From an uncultured Mediterraneibacter sp. (GTDB lineage: Bacteria > Bacillota > Clostridia > Lachnospirales > Lachnospiraceae), in the NCBI GenBank assembly GCA_944376695.1, contig CALWDM010000003.1, positions 20,278 through 84,277 on the forward strand: a stretch of 64,000 bases of DNA. Reading direction: 5' to 3'. The position numbers and the translations under genes are program-made. Position 1 is the first letter of the stretch. Every line of letters starts with the position of its first letter. The notes under the pieces are model-generated. The model was not told the origin of the DNA and did no database searches. It was given only the letters and a program-made list of their open reading frames with translations. Below are positions 56,091 through 64,000 of this stretch, piece after piece.

Positions 56091-57041
56091 CTATTCTGAG
56101 ATTTTTACCTGTACTTTTTTTGCCTGCCTCGGTCCTAAAAATTTATCCCCATTCAAATGGATCATATGTTCCGGCATTTCAGCGATCCATACTTCGCTCT
56201 CCCATGCCAGCTTCTCCGAAAATTTTTTATAAGTCTTAAAATCCAGAAAAGCTGTCACGAAAATTTTTCCTGCTGTCACATCTTTTGTCATTTCTGTGAT
56301 CTCGAGGATACGTTTCGGATCCATCGGGCCTACCGAAGTCACCGATTCCACAAAATACAGCCAGTTCTTATCTTCACGATACAACACCACATCCGGCATC
56401 TTATCGTGAAGTGTAATTTCAAATCCCAGTTTTGTCAGCTTCTCAACATTTTTTACAAGGTCTTTTTCTATGGTGTCTCCTACATACAGGCACTCTGAAT
56501 CTGGTGCAAATCTCGGTGCAAATTCTTCAATAATTGCTTTTTGCAACTCATTATGCTTTCCCGGTGAAAAACTGAAATCCTGTCCATTTATCTTTACAGG
56601 CATCATACTCATTTTCTTTTTAGAAGCATACGTTTCAATCAAACTCGGATGATAATGCTGAAATCTTCTCAAAGAAATCTCCCACTCCCTTGTGCCTCTA
56701 ACTCTTAACAATTGAAACGTTTCTTTAGTCAGCCTATACCCATAATTCGGACTATTTGTAGCCTTTCCATTATCTTCCACCAATGCTGCTGTCCGAAAAT
56801 GATGTAACGCCTGTTTTCTGAATGTTTCCCGGCTATTTTCAGCATATGTAGTTCCATAATAAGAATTTGCGAACTGGATAATATCATGTATACGGATCCA
56901 TTCGTTTGTAGCCTCTTTCCACTGCATATCCGGCTTCATTCCAGCCATAGCCAATATCACATAGCAGCAAATATCAGCCTGCTGTGCTTTGGGCATCCCT
57001 ATATGATCCAGAAAGTCTCTGGTTTCTTCAATTTTATTCAC
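56091..57041 (-). CDS. BsuBI/PstI-family restriction endonuclease
   Basis: 316 residues from GTG 57041, overlapping the methylase stop by 8 bases. The sequence resembles the type II enzymes BsuBI and PstI (CTGCAG): IHDIIQFANSYYGTTYAENS, FRKQALHHFRTAALVEDNGK, TNSPNYGYRLTKETFQLLRV, LHDKMPDVVLYREDKNWLYF and VESVTSVGPMDPKRILEITE. The PDxxL..E-type D...E/VES catalytic region is visible in the last two. Specificity is inferred from family. The frame is intact, but the promoter and methylase start lie beyond the inserted element, so expression is uncertain. Confidence 0.9.
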   Translation of the reverse strand: MNKIEETRDFLDHIGMPKAQQADICCYVILAMAGMKPDMQWKEATNEWIRIHDIIQFANSYYGTTYAENSRETFRKQALHHFRTAALVEDNGKATNSPNYGYRLTKETFQLLRVRGTREWEISLRRFQHYHPSLIETYASKKKMSMMPVKINGQDFSFSPGKHNELQKAIIEEFAPRFAPDSECLYVGDTIEKDLVKNVEKLTKLGFEITLHDKMPDVVLYREDKNWLYFVESVTSVGPMDPKRILEITEMTKDVTAGKIFVTAFLDFKTYKKFSEKLAWESEVWIAEMPEHMIHLNGDKFLGPRQAKKVQVKISE

Positions 57042-58190
57042 AGTATCCCTCCAAAATTAAATCACAATTATTTTCCGACAGATCTTTACTCTTCATCAGC
57101 TTTCTTCCCATCTCCTGTATGCATTCCAGATCAGGTACCGGCATAGCATTAATTTCTGTTGAATTTACCTGTGTGGAGCCATTTAATATACGATAATATT
57201 CGTCATACAGTGTGGAATTGAAGAGGACGTATAAGCCATATACCAGACACTCCGACATTTCATGCAGTAATCCATCAACAAAATTGATTTTGTTCTGGGT
57301 ACTGATTTTCGAATACTGCGGATAGTTTTTTGCCAAATACACACCGCACTGCAGTCTCCGGTGTTCCTCCTTTGCAGTAAACCGCTTTACAAACAGGTAA
57401 TTCCTGTTTTCCTGCATTAATCCCTTCTGGTCTGTCACTACATACTCATGCTCTTTTTGAATTGGGAACTGTACTTTTCCCTGCTTTATATGCTGTGCAT
57501 AAAACAAAGGAATAGCTCCTTCTTCTTCTGTGTCTCGCAGGATATCCCGATTACGGAAATCTACTGTCAAACCCGTTTTCATCTTTACACCAACGTCCGG
57601 CAAGGTTTTATCAAATTTATGAAGCTGCTCCAACACCTGAACTTCTTCCTCATTCGTCACCAGATACACATAATAATCTTTGCCTGAGACTACCAGATCA
57701 TATGGTACGATCAAAGATGTCAGATCACCAAAATCATTATTGGATTTCGAAGATGTGATCGTAACACTTTGCGGAACTTTTTCTGTTTTCCGCACTTTAA
57801 TAATCATTGTCTCCTGCAATACATCTTCTTTGTCAAATACCTTATTTCGACTCACGAATAAATGAATACGCTCAAGTTTCCCCTGCGTCAGAATATACTC
57901 TCTGAATCGTCTGAAATAAGCGCCCGAAGTCCACGAACGTGGAATAATATAAACCAGTTGCCCTTCATCACGCAGGTTGAAAAGTCCCATAGAGGCAAAT
58001 ATAAAATAAAGATTCGGCGCTCCATAGCAAACTTCCGGCATGGCTATAGCTTCTGGTGCGCTTTTGGGAATCTTCATATATGGAGGATTTCCAATAACAA
58101 AGTCATATTTCTCAGGATCTGGATTTCCTCCAATCGTATAGTTAAAATCTAAATACTGACTTAAAATATAATTTTCTTTTATAATAAAAA
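57034..58190 (-). pseudogene. 3' part of disrupted BsuBI/PstI-type adenine methylase
   Basis: About 385 codons, open from the insertion point to the stop. It begins (5' end) ...IIKENYILSQYLDFNYT, then DFVIGNPPYMKIPKS, the NPPY catalytic motif IV. The rest is the target-recognition part (RSWTSGAYFRRFREYILTQG, RNYLFVKRFTAKEEHRRLQC). The 5' part with the SAM motif lies at 63522-63851 beyond the mobile element. Joining both across a 6-A tract gives ...KKVSFFIIKENYILS in frame and a protein of about 495 residues, the size of M.PstI/M.BsuBI. The ATG at 58077 lies after the NPPY motif, so translation from there cannot give an active enzyme. Confidence 0.93.
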
Positions 58191-58195
58191 GGATA
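58186..58195. other. Left junction (att) of the integrated element
   Basis: AAAAAGGATA marks the left junction; the right junction is AAAAAAGGATA (63516-63526). One copy each lies at the methylase break, consistent with a Tn916-type insertion at an A-rich site. The exact crossover and coupling bases cannot be set within this shared sequence. Confidence 0.75.
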
Positions 58196-58389
58196 AAGAG
58201 TTGGAAAAATCCGCATAAATACAGTGTCTATCGATAAAACAGTAGAATAAAAACAAAGAAAATTACAACGAAATTACAACAAACGAAAGAGCCTGATATA
58301 ACGACTTATACAAAGAAATACAGAGTTATGGAAAAATGACGCTTGAAAAAGAGCGTCTTTTTCTATGACGTGAAACAGCAGATTATTTC

Positions 58390-58514
58390 ATTTCTGCTTG
58401 ATTACCTTAAAACTTATTAGCCTATGTTTTGTCAAGGGCTTGTTGCGTAAGCAATGCTGAATAGCACCCTTTACAAAACATAGGCTGATAAGTAATTTTT
58501 TAAAAGCAGAAAAG
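58390..58514. repeat. About 125-base long hairpin near the element's left end
   Basis: Arms 58409-58432 and 58473-58499 pair through AGCCTATGTTTTGT and its complement with few mismatches. Outer TTTCTGCTT (58391-58399) pairs with AAGCAGAAA (58505-58513), and inner AAGGG pairs with CCCTT, with a further TTGCGTAAGCAA mini-hairpin at the tip. No ORF is present. The gap 58196-58620 otherwise holds only this element and the cargo promoter. It could be an MITE-like remnant, an attenuator or an end structure. Confidence 0.8.
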
Positions 58515-58556
58515 AAAATGACAATTTTGGAATATTATGTTCTTTAAAATTTGACA

Positions 58557-58585
58557 TTGATTATGTTAAGGTTTAGTGATATTAT
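58557..58585 (+). promoter_or_regulatory. Probable promoter of the element's cargo genes
   Basis: TTGATT (58557-58562) and TATTAT (58580-58585) are 17 bases apart. A TAGGAGG ribosome site (about 58607-58613) precedes the ATG at 58621. An additional TTGACA at 58551-58556 directly upstream is a possible alternative -35. Confidence 0.6.
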
Positions 58586-58620
58586 TGAACGTATAGAAAC
58601 ATATTTAGGAGGATTAAGGA

Positions 58621-59076
58621 ATGAAAAAAAGATTAGTAGCCGCTTTAATGGCTGGAATTATGTGTTTTTCTACATTTGCAACAGGAGTAAGTACTGTTCA
58701 TGCGGCGGAAACTGAAGTCGCGATGAATATTGTTCAACAACTGCCTATGCCTAAAGAAAGTGATTATGCAAATGTTCCGACTGAAAGAAATCTTGCAACT
58801 AAAATCATAAAAGAAGCTATCGAGTTTATTATTAAGCATGGCGACGAAGCCGCAAAGGTAATTGAAAAGGTTGCTGGAAAAACAGTTGCAAAGAACTTTT
58901 TAAAGCATTTTGATAAAGTTTGTAGTGCGTTAAAACCACTTTTGGAATGGACAGAGATACCAACTCAAGCTGTTTACGATGCTGTTTATAGAGCATTAAA
59001 AAATGCAGGTGTTTCAAGTTCGGTAGCAGCTAATATTGCCTTAGCGATTAAAGAAGGATTGAGTTGGTTTATTTAA
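58621..59076 (+). CDS. Small secreted helical protein, candidate bacteriocin/toxin
   Basis: 151 residues with a clear Sec signal peptide (MKKRLVAALMAGIMCFSTFA, cleavage after VHA-A near residue 28) and no lipobox or anchor. The mature ~122 residues are predicted helical and slightly basic-amphipathic: TKIIKEAIEFIIKHGDEAAK, VIEKVAGKTVAKNFLKHFDK, TQAVYDAVYRALKNAGVSSS and VAANIALAIKEGLSWFI. Only one Cys is in the mature part. Cargo of an IME with a coupled small downstream gene resembles bacteriocin/immunity organisation, but I cannot place it in a known bacteriocin family. Alternative: an exported entry-exclusion or surface-signalling protein. Confidence 0.7.
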   Translation: MKKRLVAALMAGIMCFSTFATGVSTVHAAETEVAMNIVQQLPMPKESDYANVPTERNLATKIIKEAIEFIIKHGDEAAKVIEKVAGKTVAKNFLKHFDKVCSALKPLLEWTEIPTQAVYDAVYRALKNAGVSSSVAANIALAIKEGLSWFI

Positions 59077-59077
59077 A

Positions 59078-59404
59078 ATGACTGATAAAGAAAGATTATA
59101 TTTTGATAGTTTAACCGAACTTTCAGAGGCATTGGGACATAGTTATCAAAATCCATTATCTTTAAGTTTATTGTGTCTTATTCATGGAATTTCTTTCGAG
59201 CAAAAGGGAAAGATATTTATAGAATTTAATTCTTTGCTTAGACAATATGAATTTTATGATTTAGAGGTGGATTTGTTTAAAAAAGCAATGGTCAAAATTG
59301 TCCCAGAAGCAAATGATTTTTCGGAAATTGTTGTGATAGGCTTTATAAAAGCCTATGCAAAATTATTGATACCAGAGCTATATCCTTTTGCAATGACATT
59401 GTAA
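59078..59404 (+). CDS. Small cytosolic protein, candidate immunity partner
   Basis: 108 residues, starting 1 base after the previous stop, so translationally coupled. No signal peptide or clear membrane helix; mostly helical (YFDSLTELSEALGHSYQNPL, VDLFKKAMVKIVPEANDFSE, IVVIGFIKAYAKLLIPELYP). The size and gene order resemble cytosolic immunity proteins of Sec-exported or class II bacteriocins, but the family is not recognised. Function unknown. Confidence 0.65.
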   Translation: MTDKERLYFDSLTELSEALGHSYQNPLSLSLLCLIHGISFEQKGKIFIEFNSLLRQYEFYDLEVDLFKKAMVKIVPEANDFSEIVVIGFIKAYAKLLIPELYPFAMTL

Positions 59405-59429
59405 TATTTGAGTATCAGTAAATATTAAA

Positions 59430-59462
59430 AAGGATAGAAACAAAGGTTTCTGTCCTTTTCTT
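59430..59462 (+). terminator. Terminator after the cargo genes
   Basis: AAAGGATAGAAAC pairs with GTTTCTGTCCTTT (one G-T pair) around a 3-base loop, followed by TCTTA. It lies about 27 bases past the small partner gene and isolates the cargo from the mobilisation genes. Confidence 0.8.
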
Positions 59463-59490
59463 ATCCTTGCTTTAGAAATTTACTTCAAGG

Positions 59491-59645
59491 ATAAGATATT
59501 AGAACCGCCGAAGTGCTCCGCCCACGGTGGCGGTCGTAAGACATATCGCCACGCCAGCAAAGCTGGCGAGGGGGCGGTTCACTTCGGCGGTTGGGCGAGC
59601 GTAGCGAGCCTTATAAGCCCCCGTTATCTAACAGGGGGGTACTAT
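59491..59645 (+). other. Origin of transfer (oriT) with nic-region motif
   Basis: Between the cargo and the relaxase gene. The GTTATCTAACAGGGGGGTAC block (59623-59642) resembles the Tn916/ICEBs1 oriT nic region. It is preceded by large inverted repeats: AACCGCCGAAGTG / CACTTCGGCGGTT, a CGCCAGCAAAGCTGGCG hairpin and GGGCGAGCGTAGCGAGCC. The 427-base gap 59405-59831 holds this and the cargo terminator. Confidence 0.85.
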
Positions 59646-59831
59646 TACAAAAAACAAAAGACAAAACACATACAAAAGTCCCGTTATAAAACGATGTACG
59701 AAGTTATAAGGACTTATTGTACTTCACACCCTGTCATTTCTACCCGACAGGTCGAAAACAGCATATCGGAAGCAAAAATACAAGGTGTATGCTCCTATGG
59801 GCGTATGCCTTTTTTGATTGGAGGAATGAGC

Positions 59832-60962
59832 ATGAACGACATGGAATTTATCGAAGCATTGAAAACAAAACGGAACGCCTGCGGTTATTCTCAAAGCAGG
59901 CTGGCAAAGGAACTGCATATCAGCAGGCAAAATCTGAATGAGATTGAGAACGGGAAAACAAGCGCCAGCAAGGAAATGAAGCATATGCTCCTGCATTATC
60001 TGGACTACTGCAACTGCACACAGCCTTTTACGCTGAACGTTGATTACCTGCGTGTCCGCTTCCCTACAACGGACGCACTGGAGATTATCAAAGACGTGCT
60101 GGCTATGAAGATAGAATACTTTATCCATGAGGATTACGGGCTGTTCGGCTATGAGGAATTATACCGCTATGGCGAGATTGTCGTTACGGCTTCTAAAGAC
60201 ACTTCTATGGGTGTTTTACTGGAATTAAAGGGTATGGGCTGTCGGCACTTGGAACACGTGTTACAGGCAAGAGGGATAAACTGGTACAATTTTCTGAGCC
60301 GTTGCATGGACTATGAAGGTATCTTTAAGCGTCTGGACTTGGCAATCAATGACATGGGCGGACTGCTGGACATAGAAATCCTAAGAGAACGCTATTACGC
60401 TGATAAGGTGTGGAAACGTTCAAGGAAATATGAGGGCATAAACAGCGGGAAGCTATCGGGAGTAGACAGAGATACCGCAAAGACCTTTTATATCGGTTCA
60501 AAGAACAGCCCTGTCTACTTCTGCCTGTACGAGAAAGAAAAGGAGCAGAGGAACAAAGGCATACAGACCGACATCAAGAACCGCTTTGAAATCCGTCTGA
60601 AAAATGAAAAGGCAGGACAAGCGGCGGAGGAGCTTGTTTTTTCAAGAAATCCCGAACAGACCATTGCAAGCCTTATTCTCATGCAGGTGGACTTTCCCGA
60701 TTATATCCTGTGGGATATATTTATCGAGAACATGACCGCTTCCCTCCCGTTCCTCATGACGCCTGTTGCCGTCAACATGGATAAGACCATACGCTGGCTG
60801 GAAAGACAGGTCATGCCCTCCCTGCTGATGATAAAGGAGATTGAAAAGGAAACGGGAGTGAACTACTTGGAAGCAATCGACAGGCAGACGAGATTAACGG
60901 AAAAACAGGAATTGAAAATCAAGCAAATGACAACCGATATATCCGATGTGATAATAGGCTGA
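59832..60962 (+). CDS. MobT/Orf20-type relaxase (Rep_trans family with HTH)
   Basis: 376 residues from ATG 59832 (TTGGAGGA upstream; the frame extends 46 codons further 5' without family similarity). The N-terminal Cro/CI-type HTH has KTKRNACGYSQSRLAKELHI and SRQNLNEIENGKTSASKEMK. The Rep_trans nickase-type domain follows, with TLNVDYLRVRFPTTDALEII, RCMDYEGIFKRLDLAINDMG and TAKTFYIGSKNSPVYFCLYE, close to Tn916 Orf20. It should nick oriT lying just upstream and may also support rolling-circle replication of the excised circle. No coupling protein or type IV secretion genes are present in the element. Confidence 0.92.
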   Translation: MNDMEFIEALKTKRNACGYSQSRLAKELHISRQNLNEIENGKTSASKEMKHMLLHYLDYCNCTQPFTLNVDYLRVRFPTTDALEIIKDVLAMKIEYFIHEDYGLFGYEELYRYGEIVVTASKDTSMGVLLELKGMGCRHLEHVLQARGINWYNFLSRCMDYEGIFKRLDLAINDMGGLLDIEILRERYYADKVWKRSRKYEGINSGKLSGVDRDTAKTFYIGSKNSPVYFCLYEKEKEQRNKGIQTDIKNRFEIRLKNEKAGQAAEELVFSRNPEQTIASLILMQVDFPDYILWDIFIENMTASLPFLMTPVAVNMDKTIRWLERQVMPSLLMIKEIEKETGVNYLEAIDRQTRLTEKQELKIKQMTTDISDVIIG

Positions 60963-61060
60963 TACCGCTGTTCTTAAGGAAATGGCGGTATTTTTTGATT
61001 GGAAAATATTTTTCAAAAAATTTTCCCCGAAAAGTCATTATTTGGACATTCAGCGGACAG

Positions 61061-61540
61061 ATATGGAGCGAAAGAAGAAATTTCAAAAAGTTTTCGATTT
61101 TGGAAGCAAACGGGCATTTACTGTACAGATATGAGGTGGAAAGAAGAAATCTTGATTTTTTTACTATCCAGCTTAACAAACGGCACTTTGCTGTCCCTAT
61201 ATGGAGTGAAAGAAGAAAAAATGAATTTTTTTCGCTTCCAGCTTAACAAACAGCTATTTGCTGGACAGATATGGTGTGGAAGAAGAAAAAGAATAAAATT
61301 TCTGGATTTAGTCATGAAATCGCCTGTTGCTGTCCCTATATGGAGCAGAAAGGGAAATTTCTTTTCAACAATGGAAGCAAAACGCCATTTCCATTCCCTA
61401 TATGATGTGAAAAGAAGATTGTGCTTTTTGCAACAAGTCCGCCTTTCTTGTCCCTATATGGTATGGAAAGAAGAAAATGAAGCGATTTTTGCCAAAATAC
61501 ACCGTTCCATTTGTACTAATAGTGTAAAGGGAAATTTCTT
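61061..61540 (+). repeat. Array of about eight degenerate ~68-bp direct repeats
   Basis: In the 905-base gap between the relaxase and xis. Each unit has a core like ATATGGAGTGAAAGAAGAAA, seen at 61061, 61129, 61199, 61269, 61338, 61400 and 61456, with a weaker one near 61517. Spacing is 56-70 bases. The units share a flanking tail (GGAAGCAAA or CCAGCTTAACAAA) and a lead (GTCCCT or GACAG). The period is not a multiple of three. A 189-codon frame beginning with TTG runs across the array but frame-shifts through the repeats, so it is probably not a gene. The rest of the gap (61566-61867) is the usual xis-upstream sequence of this element family; no gene seen. Confidence 0.85.
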
Positions 61541-61867
61541 CTTTCAACTGTTCTTTGACAACTGAATAAAGCGGTCTGATACGTTAGACAGACAGCGAGC
61601 CATTGGAACAGGTACGCCATGACCTTACAGCCTGCCGTGTAAGCGAGCGAAAACTATCTGTGTCCATAGAAAAGGCTTGTCCCCTTTTCCAGCCATGACC
61701 TGTCCCGTCTGATAATGATACTCCCGTACAGCCACAGCTTGAGCGTTAGAAGCGTCGCACGCAATGGGTACGGCTACATGAGAACCATGCAGGAGTGCAA
61801 TTCCCGTGGGCTTTGACACAAGCCGTCTGACCGCTTCTAAACAGCGAGGAAAGGAGGTGTCATATCT

Positions 61868-62068
61868 ATGCACGATTTAAGTATGCCGTTATGGGAGAGA
61901 TACCTCATGACGATAGAGGAAGCGTCCAGCTATTTCCGTATCGGGGAGAACAAGCTCCGCCAGCTTGCCAACGAATACAAAGAGGAATGTGTCGTGATGA
62001 ACGGAAACCGTATGCTTATCAAGAAAAAGAAATTTGAAAAAGTCATTGACCGATTGGAACAAATCTAG
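61868..62068 (+). CDS. xis: Tn916-type excisionase
   Basis: 66 residues, small basic winged-helix DNA-binding protein required for excision together with Int. [40 protein letters not shown] and [18 protein letters not shown] match Tn916 Xis closely. An AAAGGAGG ribosome site lies 10 bases upstream. It is followed 82 bases later by int. Confidence 0.95.
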
Positions 62069-62150
62069 TGAAAAAGAGCCTTGTGTGTGGTAAGATATGT
62101 ATAAGTCGTTACAGCAAGGCTCTTTCTTACTTGGAAAGGAGTTAAGAAAG

Positions 62151-63344
62151 ATGTCATCAGCAAAAAGACGGGATAACAGAAACCGTATCTTAAACAGGGG
62201 AGAGAGCCAAAGACAGGACGGCAGGTACACCTATAAATATGTGGACGCACAGGGAGAAACAAAGTATGTCTACGCATGGAAGCTGTTGCCTACGGATAAG
62301 ACACCGGCAGGAAAGCGTGAGGACTTATCCCTACGGGAAAAGGAGCGTATCATACAGCGGGATTTATTTGACGGTATCGACACAAAGGGAAGCAAAATGA
62401 CCTTGTGCCAGCTATACGCCAAAAAGAACGCCCAAAGACCGAACGTGAAGAAAAGCACACAGCAGGGGCGGAAATACCTCATGGAAGCGTTGAAGCAGGA
62501 CAAGCTGGGGGCAAGGAGCATAGACAGCATAAAGCCGTCAGACGCTAAGGAATGGGCGGTCAGAATGAAAGAGAATGGTTTTTCCTACAAGACAATCAAA
62601 AACTACAAACGTTCCTTAAAAGCGTCATTCCACATGGCGATAGAGGACGACTGCGTAAGGAAGAACCCGTTTGATTTCCAGTTAAGCGAAGTTATCGAGG
62701 ACGACAGCAAGCCGAAAGTCGCCTTGAGCGAGGAACAGGAAGCAAGGCTGTTAGATTTCATGGAGCAGGACAGAACCTATCAGAAGTATCATGATGATGT
62801 GCTTATCCTGCTGAAAACAGGCTTGCGTATCTCAGAACTATGCGGACTGACAAGGAGCGATATTGATTTCAAGAATCATGCAATCCGTATCACTCACCAG
62901 CTACTCAAAGACAAGGACGGTTTCTACATAGCCGAGCCAAAGACAAAGAGCGGTGTCCGCAACGTGCCTATGAGCGAGGAAACAGAGAAAGCCTTTCATA
63001 GAGTGCTGAAAAGGAAGCAGAAGCCAAAAATCAAAGAGATAGACGGCTACCGCAATTTTCTGTTCCTTAGTCCTCATGGCTACCCTATGCAGGAGGGCTG
63101 TTATAAATCGGTGCTGAACGGCGTTGTAAAGAAGTACAACAAGAGCCATGAGAAAACACCGTTGCCGAGGATAACGCCCCACAGCCTAAGACATACATTC
63201 TGCACACAGCTTGCACAGAAGAACATGAACCCGAAGAATTTACAGTATATCATGGGACACGCAAGCATAACGATAACGCTGGACTTATACGCTCATGCGT
63301 CAGAGGCAGGAGCAAACAGGGAAATGCGAAGCCTGATAGCATGA
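62151..63344 (+). CDS. int: Tn916-type tyrosine integrase
   Basis: 397 residues from ATG 62151 (GGAAAGGAG upstream). N-terminal arm-binding domain (KRRDNRNRILNRGESQRQDG, RYTYKYVDAQGETKYVYAWK), then the core-binding and catalytic domains. Tyrosine recombinase catalytic residues are visible: Arg in LLKTGLRISELCGLTRSDID, HSLRHTFC (H-x-x-R), GHASITIT and nucleophile Tyr in LDLYAHAS. Very similar to Tn916 Int. It ends about 180 bases before the right junction; 63345-63521 holds the element's end sequences. Confidence 0.97.
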   Translation: MSSAKRRDNRNRILNRGESQRQDGRYTYKYVDAQGETKYVYAWKLLPTDKTPAGKREDLSLREKERIIQRDLFDGIDTKGSKMTLCQLYAKKNAQRPNVKKSTQQGRKYLMEALKQDKLGARSIDSIKPSDAKEWAVRMKENGFSYKTIKNYKRSLKASFHMAIEDDCVRKNPFDFQLSEVIEDDSKPKVALSEEQEARLLDFMEQDRTYQKYHDDVLILLKTGLRISELCGLTRSDIDFKNHAIRITHQLLKDKDGFYIAEPKTKSGVRNVPMSEETEKAFHRVLKRKQKPKIKEIDGYRNFLFLSPHGYPMQEGCYKSVLNGVVKKYNKSHEKTPLPRITPHSLRHTFCTQLAQKNMNPKNLQYIMGHASITITLDLYAHASEAGANREMRSLIA

Positions 63345-63515
63345 TTTACAACGATTTATACAACGTTTTAAGGCGGAAATATGCGTGGTTAAGTCCAGTT
63401 GCACGGTAGACCTGCAAGATAGAAAAGAACCGCCAAACCCTTATAAACAGGGATATATTGACGGTTCGTGATAGTTATAAAAAGATACTGAAAAATCTAT
63501 GCTGTTTTTAAATAT

Positions 63516-63526
63516 AAAAAAGGATA
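63516..63526. other. Right junction (att) of the integrated element
   Basis: AAAAAAGGATA, one A longer than the left copy. The restored methylase frame needs six A's, so the pre-insertion site had this 6-A form. Confidence 0.75.
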
Positions 63527-63851
63527 CTTTCTTCGCAGATTTCTCCTGACAATATCTAAGATTGTCTTCTAACAGCTGCAAAACATTTTCATCATTCTCA
63601 TAGCAGGTTACCTCTATTTCTTCTACAAAAGGCAGCCTTTCCACTCGTTCTAAAAAAGCGCATGCTAAAATGCCGGAGCCAGCTCCGGCATCCAGTACAC
63701 TGATCTTTGTCATATCAGGAGTAATATCATATAGACTTGCCATAAAACGGGCTGTTTCCATACTTGTAAAAAACTGCCCGTATTTTTTACGCTCTTTTTT
63801 CGGCATTGTGTCAATATAACCATTTGTCAATTCTATAACTTTATCCAGCAT
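63522..63851 (-). pseudogene. 5' part of disrupted adenine methylase
   Basis: About 110 codons from ATG 63851: MLDKVIELTNGYIDTMPKKE, KYGQFFTSMETARFMASLYD (motif X region) and the SAM-binding motif I VLDAGAGSGILACAFLE, ending ...KSAKKVSFF at the junction. In the present arrangement the frame continues into the element for about 26 residues (63441-63521) and stops. It joins in frame with the 3' part at 57034-58190. The insertion therefore separates SAM motif I from the NPPY motif. Confidence 0.93.
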
Positions 63852-63884
63852 GATCTCACCTGCTTTGTATATATCTGTGGCTTG

Positions 63885-63913
63885 ATTATACTATATGTTG
63901 TGTTCTTTTTCAA
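63885..63913 (-). promoter_or_regulatory. Promoter of the R-M operon
   Basis: On the minus strand TTGAAA (63908-63913) and TATAAT (63885-63890), exactly 17 bases apart, lie upstream of the methylase ATG. With the element inserted, this promoter cannot reach the restriction gene except by read-through. The remainder of the window to 64000 shows no gene. Confidence 0.8.
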
Positions 63914-64000
63914 TCATCACTTTACTTGAGTTTCCGCAGAATTATCCCCCTAAGACAAATCTGCTACGTTTTGTTATCCACAACTTTCAAAAAATGGCCA

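Follow-up and report, generated by a model that had tools for sequence, protein, structure and literature searches.

The window, a stretch of 64,000 nucleotides from an uncultured Mediterraneibacter sp., contains towards its right-hand end what, judged by its domains, is a restriction-modification (R-M) operon of the BsuBI/PstI family. The operon lies on the minus strand in the order promoter-M-R, with M running from 63851 and R from 57041 to 56091, and M is divided by an inserted element. The features of the locus are as follows; loci of other genomes are designated by L numbers.

56091-57041, minus strand: R, an intact BsuBI/PstI/SdaI-type restriction endonuclease of 316 aa, recognised by its Pfam domains and its match to SdaI
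57034-58179, minus strand: C-terminal part of M, with NPPY (Eco57I, PF07669, 64.9 bits)
58180-58185, no strand: target 6-mer TATAAT, the host's own, equal to the empty sites of L003, L024, L025 and L029
58186-63509, plus strand: inserted Tn916-type mobilizable element of 5,324 bp, with its ends set from empty sites and L174
63510-63515, no strand: foreign 6-mer AAATAT, the coupling sequence, absent from the empty sites
63516-63851, minus strand: N-terminal part of M, with DAGAGSG; the N-parts in L024, L025 and L027-L029 are 90-98% identical
63885-63913, minus strand: predicted operon promoter TTGAAA-17-TATAAT (11 of 12), its hexamers conserved in five relatives
63925-64000, no strand: end of an insertion sequence (IS) that runs off the contig, with a 100% copy in the same genome and a homologue in L216

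The endonuclease gene appears intact, as the first-pass annotation had stated. Both BsuBI_PstI_RE Pfam domains (PF06616, 204.6 bits; PF17728, 135.1 bits) are covered almost end to end, SdaI (2ixs), the sole solved relative found, matches R at E 5.6e-53, and T282S is the single departure of R among 117 near-invariant columns in the sequences of 97 aligned relatives. An adenine methylase is linked to this endonuclease, and the same M-R order is found in 94 loci of relatives. M is a predicted Eco57I-type adenine methylase split in two by the element, and the break falls where it had initially been placed, between DAGAGSG in the N-part, which we take to be SAM motif I, and NPPY in the C-part. The split methylase is presumably inactive, and the genome contains no second homologue of the interrupted M, although an unrelated methylase with the same specificity could be present. 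CTGCAG and CCTGCAGG are the candidate methylation motifs; SdaI is an 8-base cutter, and CTGCAG occurs 11 times in the window, compared with 17.4 +/- 4.1 in shuffled sequences.

We compared the locus with 21 family loci (from 20 other genomes of 397 searched) and with the best 80 of 322 named loci. Both halves of M are present in 94 loci (17 of the 21 family loci and 77 of the 80 named ones), and in every one of these they are contiguous, with gaps of -2 to 34 bases that are set by the ends of the local alignments; not all of the 94 are independent, L003 and L029, for example, being one and the same sequence. Seven loci were dropped. L019 and L020 have a distant R and yielded neither half of M, L022 and L023 contain fragments of R, and L026 and L050, whose contigs start inside M, lack the N half. 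L098, the seventh, has an R-like gene without the first 23 residues and no M half within the preceding 10 kb. Three of the 57 Mediterraneibacter genus-mates searched carry the same R-M operon, in stretches identical to the named records L024 (Candidatus Mediterraneibacter tabaqchaliae), L025 (Lachnoclostridium sp. An76) and L027 (Mediterraneibacter glycyrrhizinilyticus). In L024, a sister species, the sequence stays collinear with the window from 47815 as far as the operon, and M is uninterrupted. The first-pass annotation had seen in the insertion a possible reversible on/off switch and had named uninterrupted relatives as a comparison to make. An evolved switch would mean that the element is kept in M because restriction can be turned on by its excision and off by its re-entry. 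The absence of a second interrupted M (0 of the 94 other loci) argues against this reading, as does the generic nature of the target described below.

The element, estimated at about 5.3 kb in the first-pass annotation, measures 5,324 bp. Its left junction is identical to the empty site of L003/L029 through TTTTCTTTTATAAT and matches the empty sites of L024 and L025 over TATAATAAAAAAGG. The right end, ...GCTGTTTTT, is common to the window element and to the remnant L174, from another genus, and the two sequences diverge beyond it. Because the left junction follows the empty sites and the right end is common to L174, we place the element at 58186-63509. The target is laid out as TTTTCTTT-TATAAT-AAAAAAGG, in which the A-run is the A-rich arm. 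Excerpts of published work describe the Tn916 target as T-rich and A-rich arms around six bases, and Tn916 integration as using a 6-bp coupling sequence (PMC4701971, PMC12084037). The window site fits this published target, with a foreign 6-mer at one junction. In Tn916 the coupling sequence can stand at either end of the element. The foreign 6-mer of the window sits at the int end, whereas for Tn916 the excerpt of PMC12084037 mentions the left end, a point against the insertion as reconstructed below. A crossover within six A's, as previously suggested, gives way to TATAAT/AAATAT adjoining the A-tract once the right end is compared with L174; the joined sequence is unchanged and the mechanism differs. 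A crossover at TTTTTT/CTTTTT was likewise dropped after the same comparison.

Joining the flanks with either 6-mer yields a single open M frame of 495 aa, the two products differing by one residue (FFIIKE or FFIFKE), and the rejoined M overlaps the start of R by 8 bases. This bears out the earlier prediction that precise excision would give one open methylase of about 495 codons overlapping the start of R. The frame is kept because six bases are two codons, unless the 6-mer carries a stop. That both joins restore M would suit an evolved switch; however, any 6-bp exchange in coding sequence keeps the frame, so that an open M after joining does not point to design. The regularity of the junctions also bears on the quality of the assembly. 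The genome is a draft of 103 contigs, from which one could imagine an artefactual join, but both junctions display the expected signature and the integrase segment is single-copy in the assembly, making an artefact exceedingly improbable.

Within the element, the following features were recognised.

58621-59076, plus strand: cargo gene 1, 151 aa, its product apparently secreted (by eye)
59078-59404, plus strand: cargo gene 2, 108 aa, with no PDB relative found
59618-59639, plus strand: GC-rich, oriT-like hairpin whose loop contains CTAA, by eye from the sequence
59829-60962, plus strand: MobT-like relaxase (HTH, Rol_Rep_N, Rep_trans), 377 aa (PF02486, 141.9 bits)
61108-61460, plus strand: six copies of a 26-nt repeat with a spacing of 56-70, from sequence analysis
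61712-61809, plus strand: pemK-family RNA, 58 bases 5' of xis (RF02913, 52.9 bits, gathering 34.8)
61868-62068, plus strand: xis (PF09035 Tn916-Xis, 47.4 bits, cut-off 22.9)
62151-63344, plus strand: int, a Tn916-type tyrosine integrase (PF02920, 101.3 bits; PF00589, 129.3 bits)

The five recognised genes run opposite to M and R, away from R. As first annotated, int and xis look complete, PF02920, PF00589 and PF09035 all scoring above their cut-offs, a point that an evolved switch would also call for. The relaxase is well above the cut-off of PF02486 and matches NF041493 over its full length at 326.9 bits, below the cut-off of 600. A MOBT-type nic feature, CTAA in a GC-rich hairpin, is present at 59618-59639, by eye only, and resembles the MOBT nic site described in an excerpt of PMC9371924. 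No family was found for either cargo protein in Pfam or NCBIfam; a bacteriocin with its immunity protein would be a guess for the pair at 58621-59404. The 26-nt repeats (region 61055-61480) lie between the relaxase and xis and are partly kept in related elements.

RF02913 was detected in 12 of 20 Tn916-type integrase loci scanned and in eight of 10 further loci, those eight having been chosen for matching this stretch and the other two, L107 and L113, being without the RNA; the scans took in all but seven of 29 integrase loci. In five integrase loci examined closely, a 67-aa frame that looks by eye like Xis follows the RNA after 60-81 bases; in the eight further loci the RNA is followed by a short frame and then by a 537-aa protein (broken in L168) that resembles, again by eye, a serine recombinase. 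Its carriers are the window, L114-L119, L122-L126, L132, L164, L165, L168-L172 and L176. This arrangement suggests that the pemK-family RNA is a leader of excision modules. Before xis, such an RNA could be the control point of an evolved switch, but it is common in related elements elsewhere and hence nothing special to the window insertion.

The first-pass annotation had placed a single promoter beyond the element and had deduced that both R and M should be off. TTGAAA-17-TATAAT at 63913-63885 is indeed the best of 14 promoter-like sites between 55900 and 64000, a total not above chance (18.3 +/- 4.6 in shuffles), and its hexamers and spacing are kept in L024, L025, L027, L028 and L029 with few differences in the spacer. 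Three weaker minus-strand promoter-like sites (9-10 of 12, chance level) lie within the element and point towards R; between those three and R stands a weak terminator-like hairpin on the same strand (58357-58338). The same scan found no minus-strand promoter-like site between the R start and the element. Judging by this anatomy, R is very probably off together with the interrupted M, the three sites within the element being what speaks against it. If R is silent with M, the cell would tolerate the loss of M, having no unprotected endonuclease. Conversely, a promoter within M or the element might still drive production of R, with the chromosome protected by another methylase or with a weakened R, as the three sites and the T282S change at a near-invariant position would allow. 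We regard this as improbable: promoter-like sites do not exceed those in shuffles, the stretch from the R start to the element is free of them, the genome holds no second M homologue, and T to S is a mild change.

A feature that the first-pass annotation had missed lies on the other side of the promoter. The IS begins at 63925, eleven bases 5' of the -35, and the contig ends at 64000. A second 100% copy of these 76 bases is found at C35 of the same genome, apparently also at a contig end, and in L216 a 91% relative has both a DDE transposase and a terminal inverted repeat of 14 bp. The IS stands where relatives carry the palindrome GAACNNNNGTTC (GAACN4GTTC), which the window does not have.

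The IS could be a second sign that the operon has been irreversibly inactivated: the element would be locked in place, or would disappear only together with the locus, while the operon begins to decay. That it displaced a palindrome conserved in relatives fits this alternative, as do the M promoter pointing antisense into int and the element remnants L173 and L174 elsewhere. However, M N-part, M C-part and R contain no stop or frameshift, and int and xis look complete; we thus hold irreversible inactivation to be possible but doubtful. The dN/dS values relative to L024 are 0.25 for the N-part (short, with four changes of each kind), 0.07 for the C-part and 0.11 for R, and the window-specific changes, synonymous/nonsynonymous, number 2/0, 23/5 and 10/5, respectively. 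Purifying selection still detectable in M and R would be in keeping with an evolved switch. The undecayed state of M and R fits a recent insertion and selection for keeping the operon alike, and so does not decide between them.

Relatives of the element were found at other sites. Six related right ends, from elements with related integrases, lie in six different flanks, with 7-13 of 24 bases alike in pairwise comparison, which again argues against an evolved switch. Among the 397 family genomes, own included, a single close piece turned up in L105/L174, with 89% identity over 564 bases, the remaining matches being 64-75% identical; a second remnant, L173, is 86% identical in the relaxase and, over 101 bases of the right end, 91%. 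Elements with other recombinases gave relaxase matches of 78%. The searches covered 397 family, 58 genus and 392 order genomes (overlapping sets, own included; few candidates per genome scored; the order genomes searched at E <= 1e-100) and brought up the remnants L173 and L174 but no close copy that is intact. The best of 46 plasmid records has a coverage of 45% at 68%, and the best of four phage records one of 30% at 66%. In viral_contigs there was one pattern match and no Int relative, and no circle junction, the latter carrying little weight. The related MobT-type elements L164-L168 and L176 have a common left end, GTTTCCCAAACAAAA[AG]GATATT, which in all six follows the HTH part of different XRE-like genes (by eye) and which looks like site-specific insertion into a conserved run of HTH codons; a seventh element, L175, does not share this position.

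Together, these observations lead us to consider it highly likely that a Tn916-type element inserted in M by chance and recently, that the insertion is polar and could in principle be reversed, and that it is tolerated because R was silenced too. The anatomy, the two junctions, the empty sites, the frame and the lack of recurrence are read directly from the DNA compared; the course of events would be as follows. A Tn916-type mobilizable element would have integrated by chance, recently, at a standard Tn916 target inside M, splitting the methylase between its SAM-binding and catalytic motifs and probably inactivating it. The operon promoter would now read the N-part of M only and then run antisense into int. 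R lies downstream and shows no promoter of its own; it would be off too, and the loss of M would hence be tolerated. Tn916-type insertions are in general reversible by excision, and we infer that the element could be excised by Int and Xis, that either the original or the foreign 6-mer would stay behind with the frame kept in both cases, and that rare revertants would regain M and R together, their fate on an unmethylated chromosome being part of the same inference.

The switch originally suggested thus survives in part. M is cut, R is probably silenced, int and xis look complete and both joins are open, but the element does not appear to be a gene-control device: M is contiguous in 94/94 loci, the site in L024 is empty, the target is generic, the right ends are scattered and the genomes sampled yielded no intact close copy. 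Switching is a possibility inherent in every Tn916-type insertion and not special to this locus. We accordingly give little credence to an evolved reversible switch. No more persuasive is the idea that the operon forms a silent, repairable reserve in which a low-specificity Tn916-type IME interrupts M, the 6-bp exchange restores the frame irrespective of the strand that wins and the pemK-family RNA ties excision to the state of the cell, so that a small subpopulation regains restriction as a bet-hedge.

The element has in common with Tn916 the Int and Xis families, the T-rich/6 bp/A-rich target and the 6-bp coupling sequence, and differs in its size of 5.3 kb, its five recognised genes and its own cargo, no conjugation or resistance genes having been seen. 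With the MobT IMEs of Firmicutes, as an excerpt of PMC5704250 presents them, it shares a Rep_trans/MobT-like relaxase and an oriT-like hairpin beside the integrase; those elements use mostly fixed sites, whereas the window element has a low-specificity Tn916-type integrase and a relaxase that does not reach the NF041493 cut-off. ICEs with serine-integrase triplets insert in hsdM, according to an excerpt of PMC4701971, and thereby also disrupt the methylase gene of an R-M system, but by site-specific integration in a type I system, in contrast to the chance site in a type II system seen here. At the SpnIV tvr locus (excerpt of PMC6265443), recombinase-driven excision and reintegration likewise alter an R-M system; that is a dedicated locus shuffling specificity, whereas the window would present on/off control by a foreign element. 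A literature search of titles and abstract starts found no IME switching a type II R-M system. In active lysogeny, exemplified by the Listeria comK prophage, an element splits a gene and its regulated excision from a fixed site restores it. The window element also splits a gene whose frame its predicted excision could restore, but the fixed site of active lysogeny is not seen (0 of 94 other loci interrupted).

Should R and M come back through excision in real populations, the restriction barrier of a type II system would be under on/off control by a mobile element, and survival of re-established restriction on an unmethylated chromosome would become directly askable. Two more general points emerge, namely that a 6-bp exchange would make excision from coding sequence frame-neutral and that an insertion in M would be survivable when it is polar on R.

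The palindrome replaced by the IS deserves mention in its own right. Of 74 regions upstream of M, 23 contain GAACN4GTTC, whereas six other 150-base stretches of the same loci gave 0 of 72-76 each, and none of 95 other palindromes compared was found more than twice. All but one of the 23 loci have it at -80 to -85 relative to M; because the loci are related, they are not 23 independent cases. Carriers include L024, L025, L027-L029, L033-L038 and L040. Near matches to it are found upstream of the genome's own lexA, and the palindrome may be a LexA operator, a name that is tentative because exact copies are not enriched in the same genome (21 sites versus 23 for the reversed control). Fifteen of these genomic GAACN4GTTC sites were inspected, and each overlaps an open frame, genuine or spurious, of 80 codons or more. 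If the LexA operator holds true, these type II R-M operons would be SOS-linked, and the window copy would have been lost to the IS.
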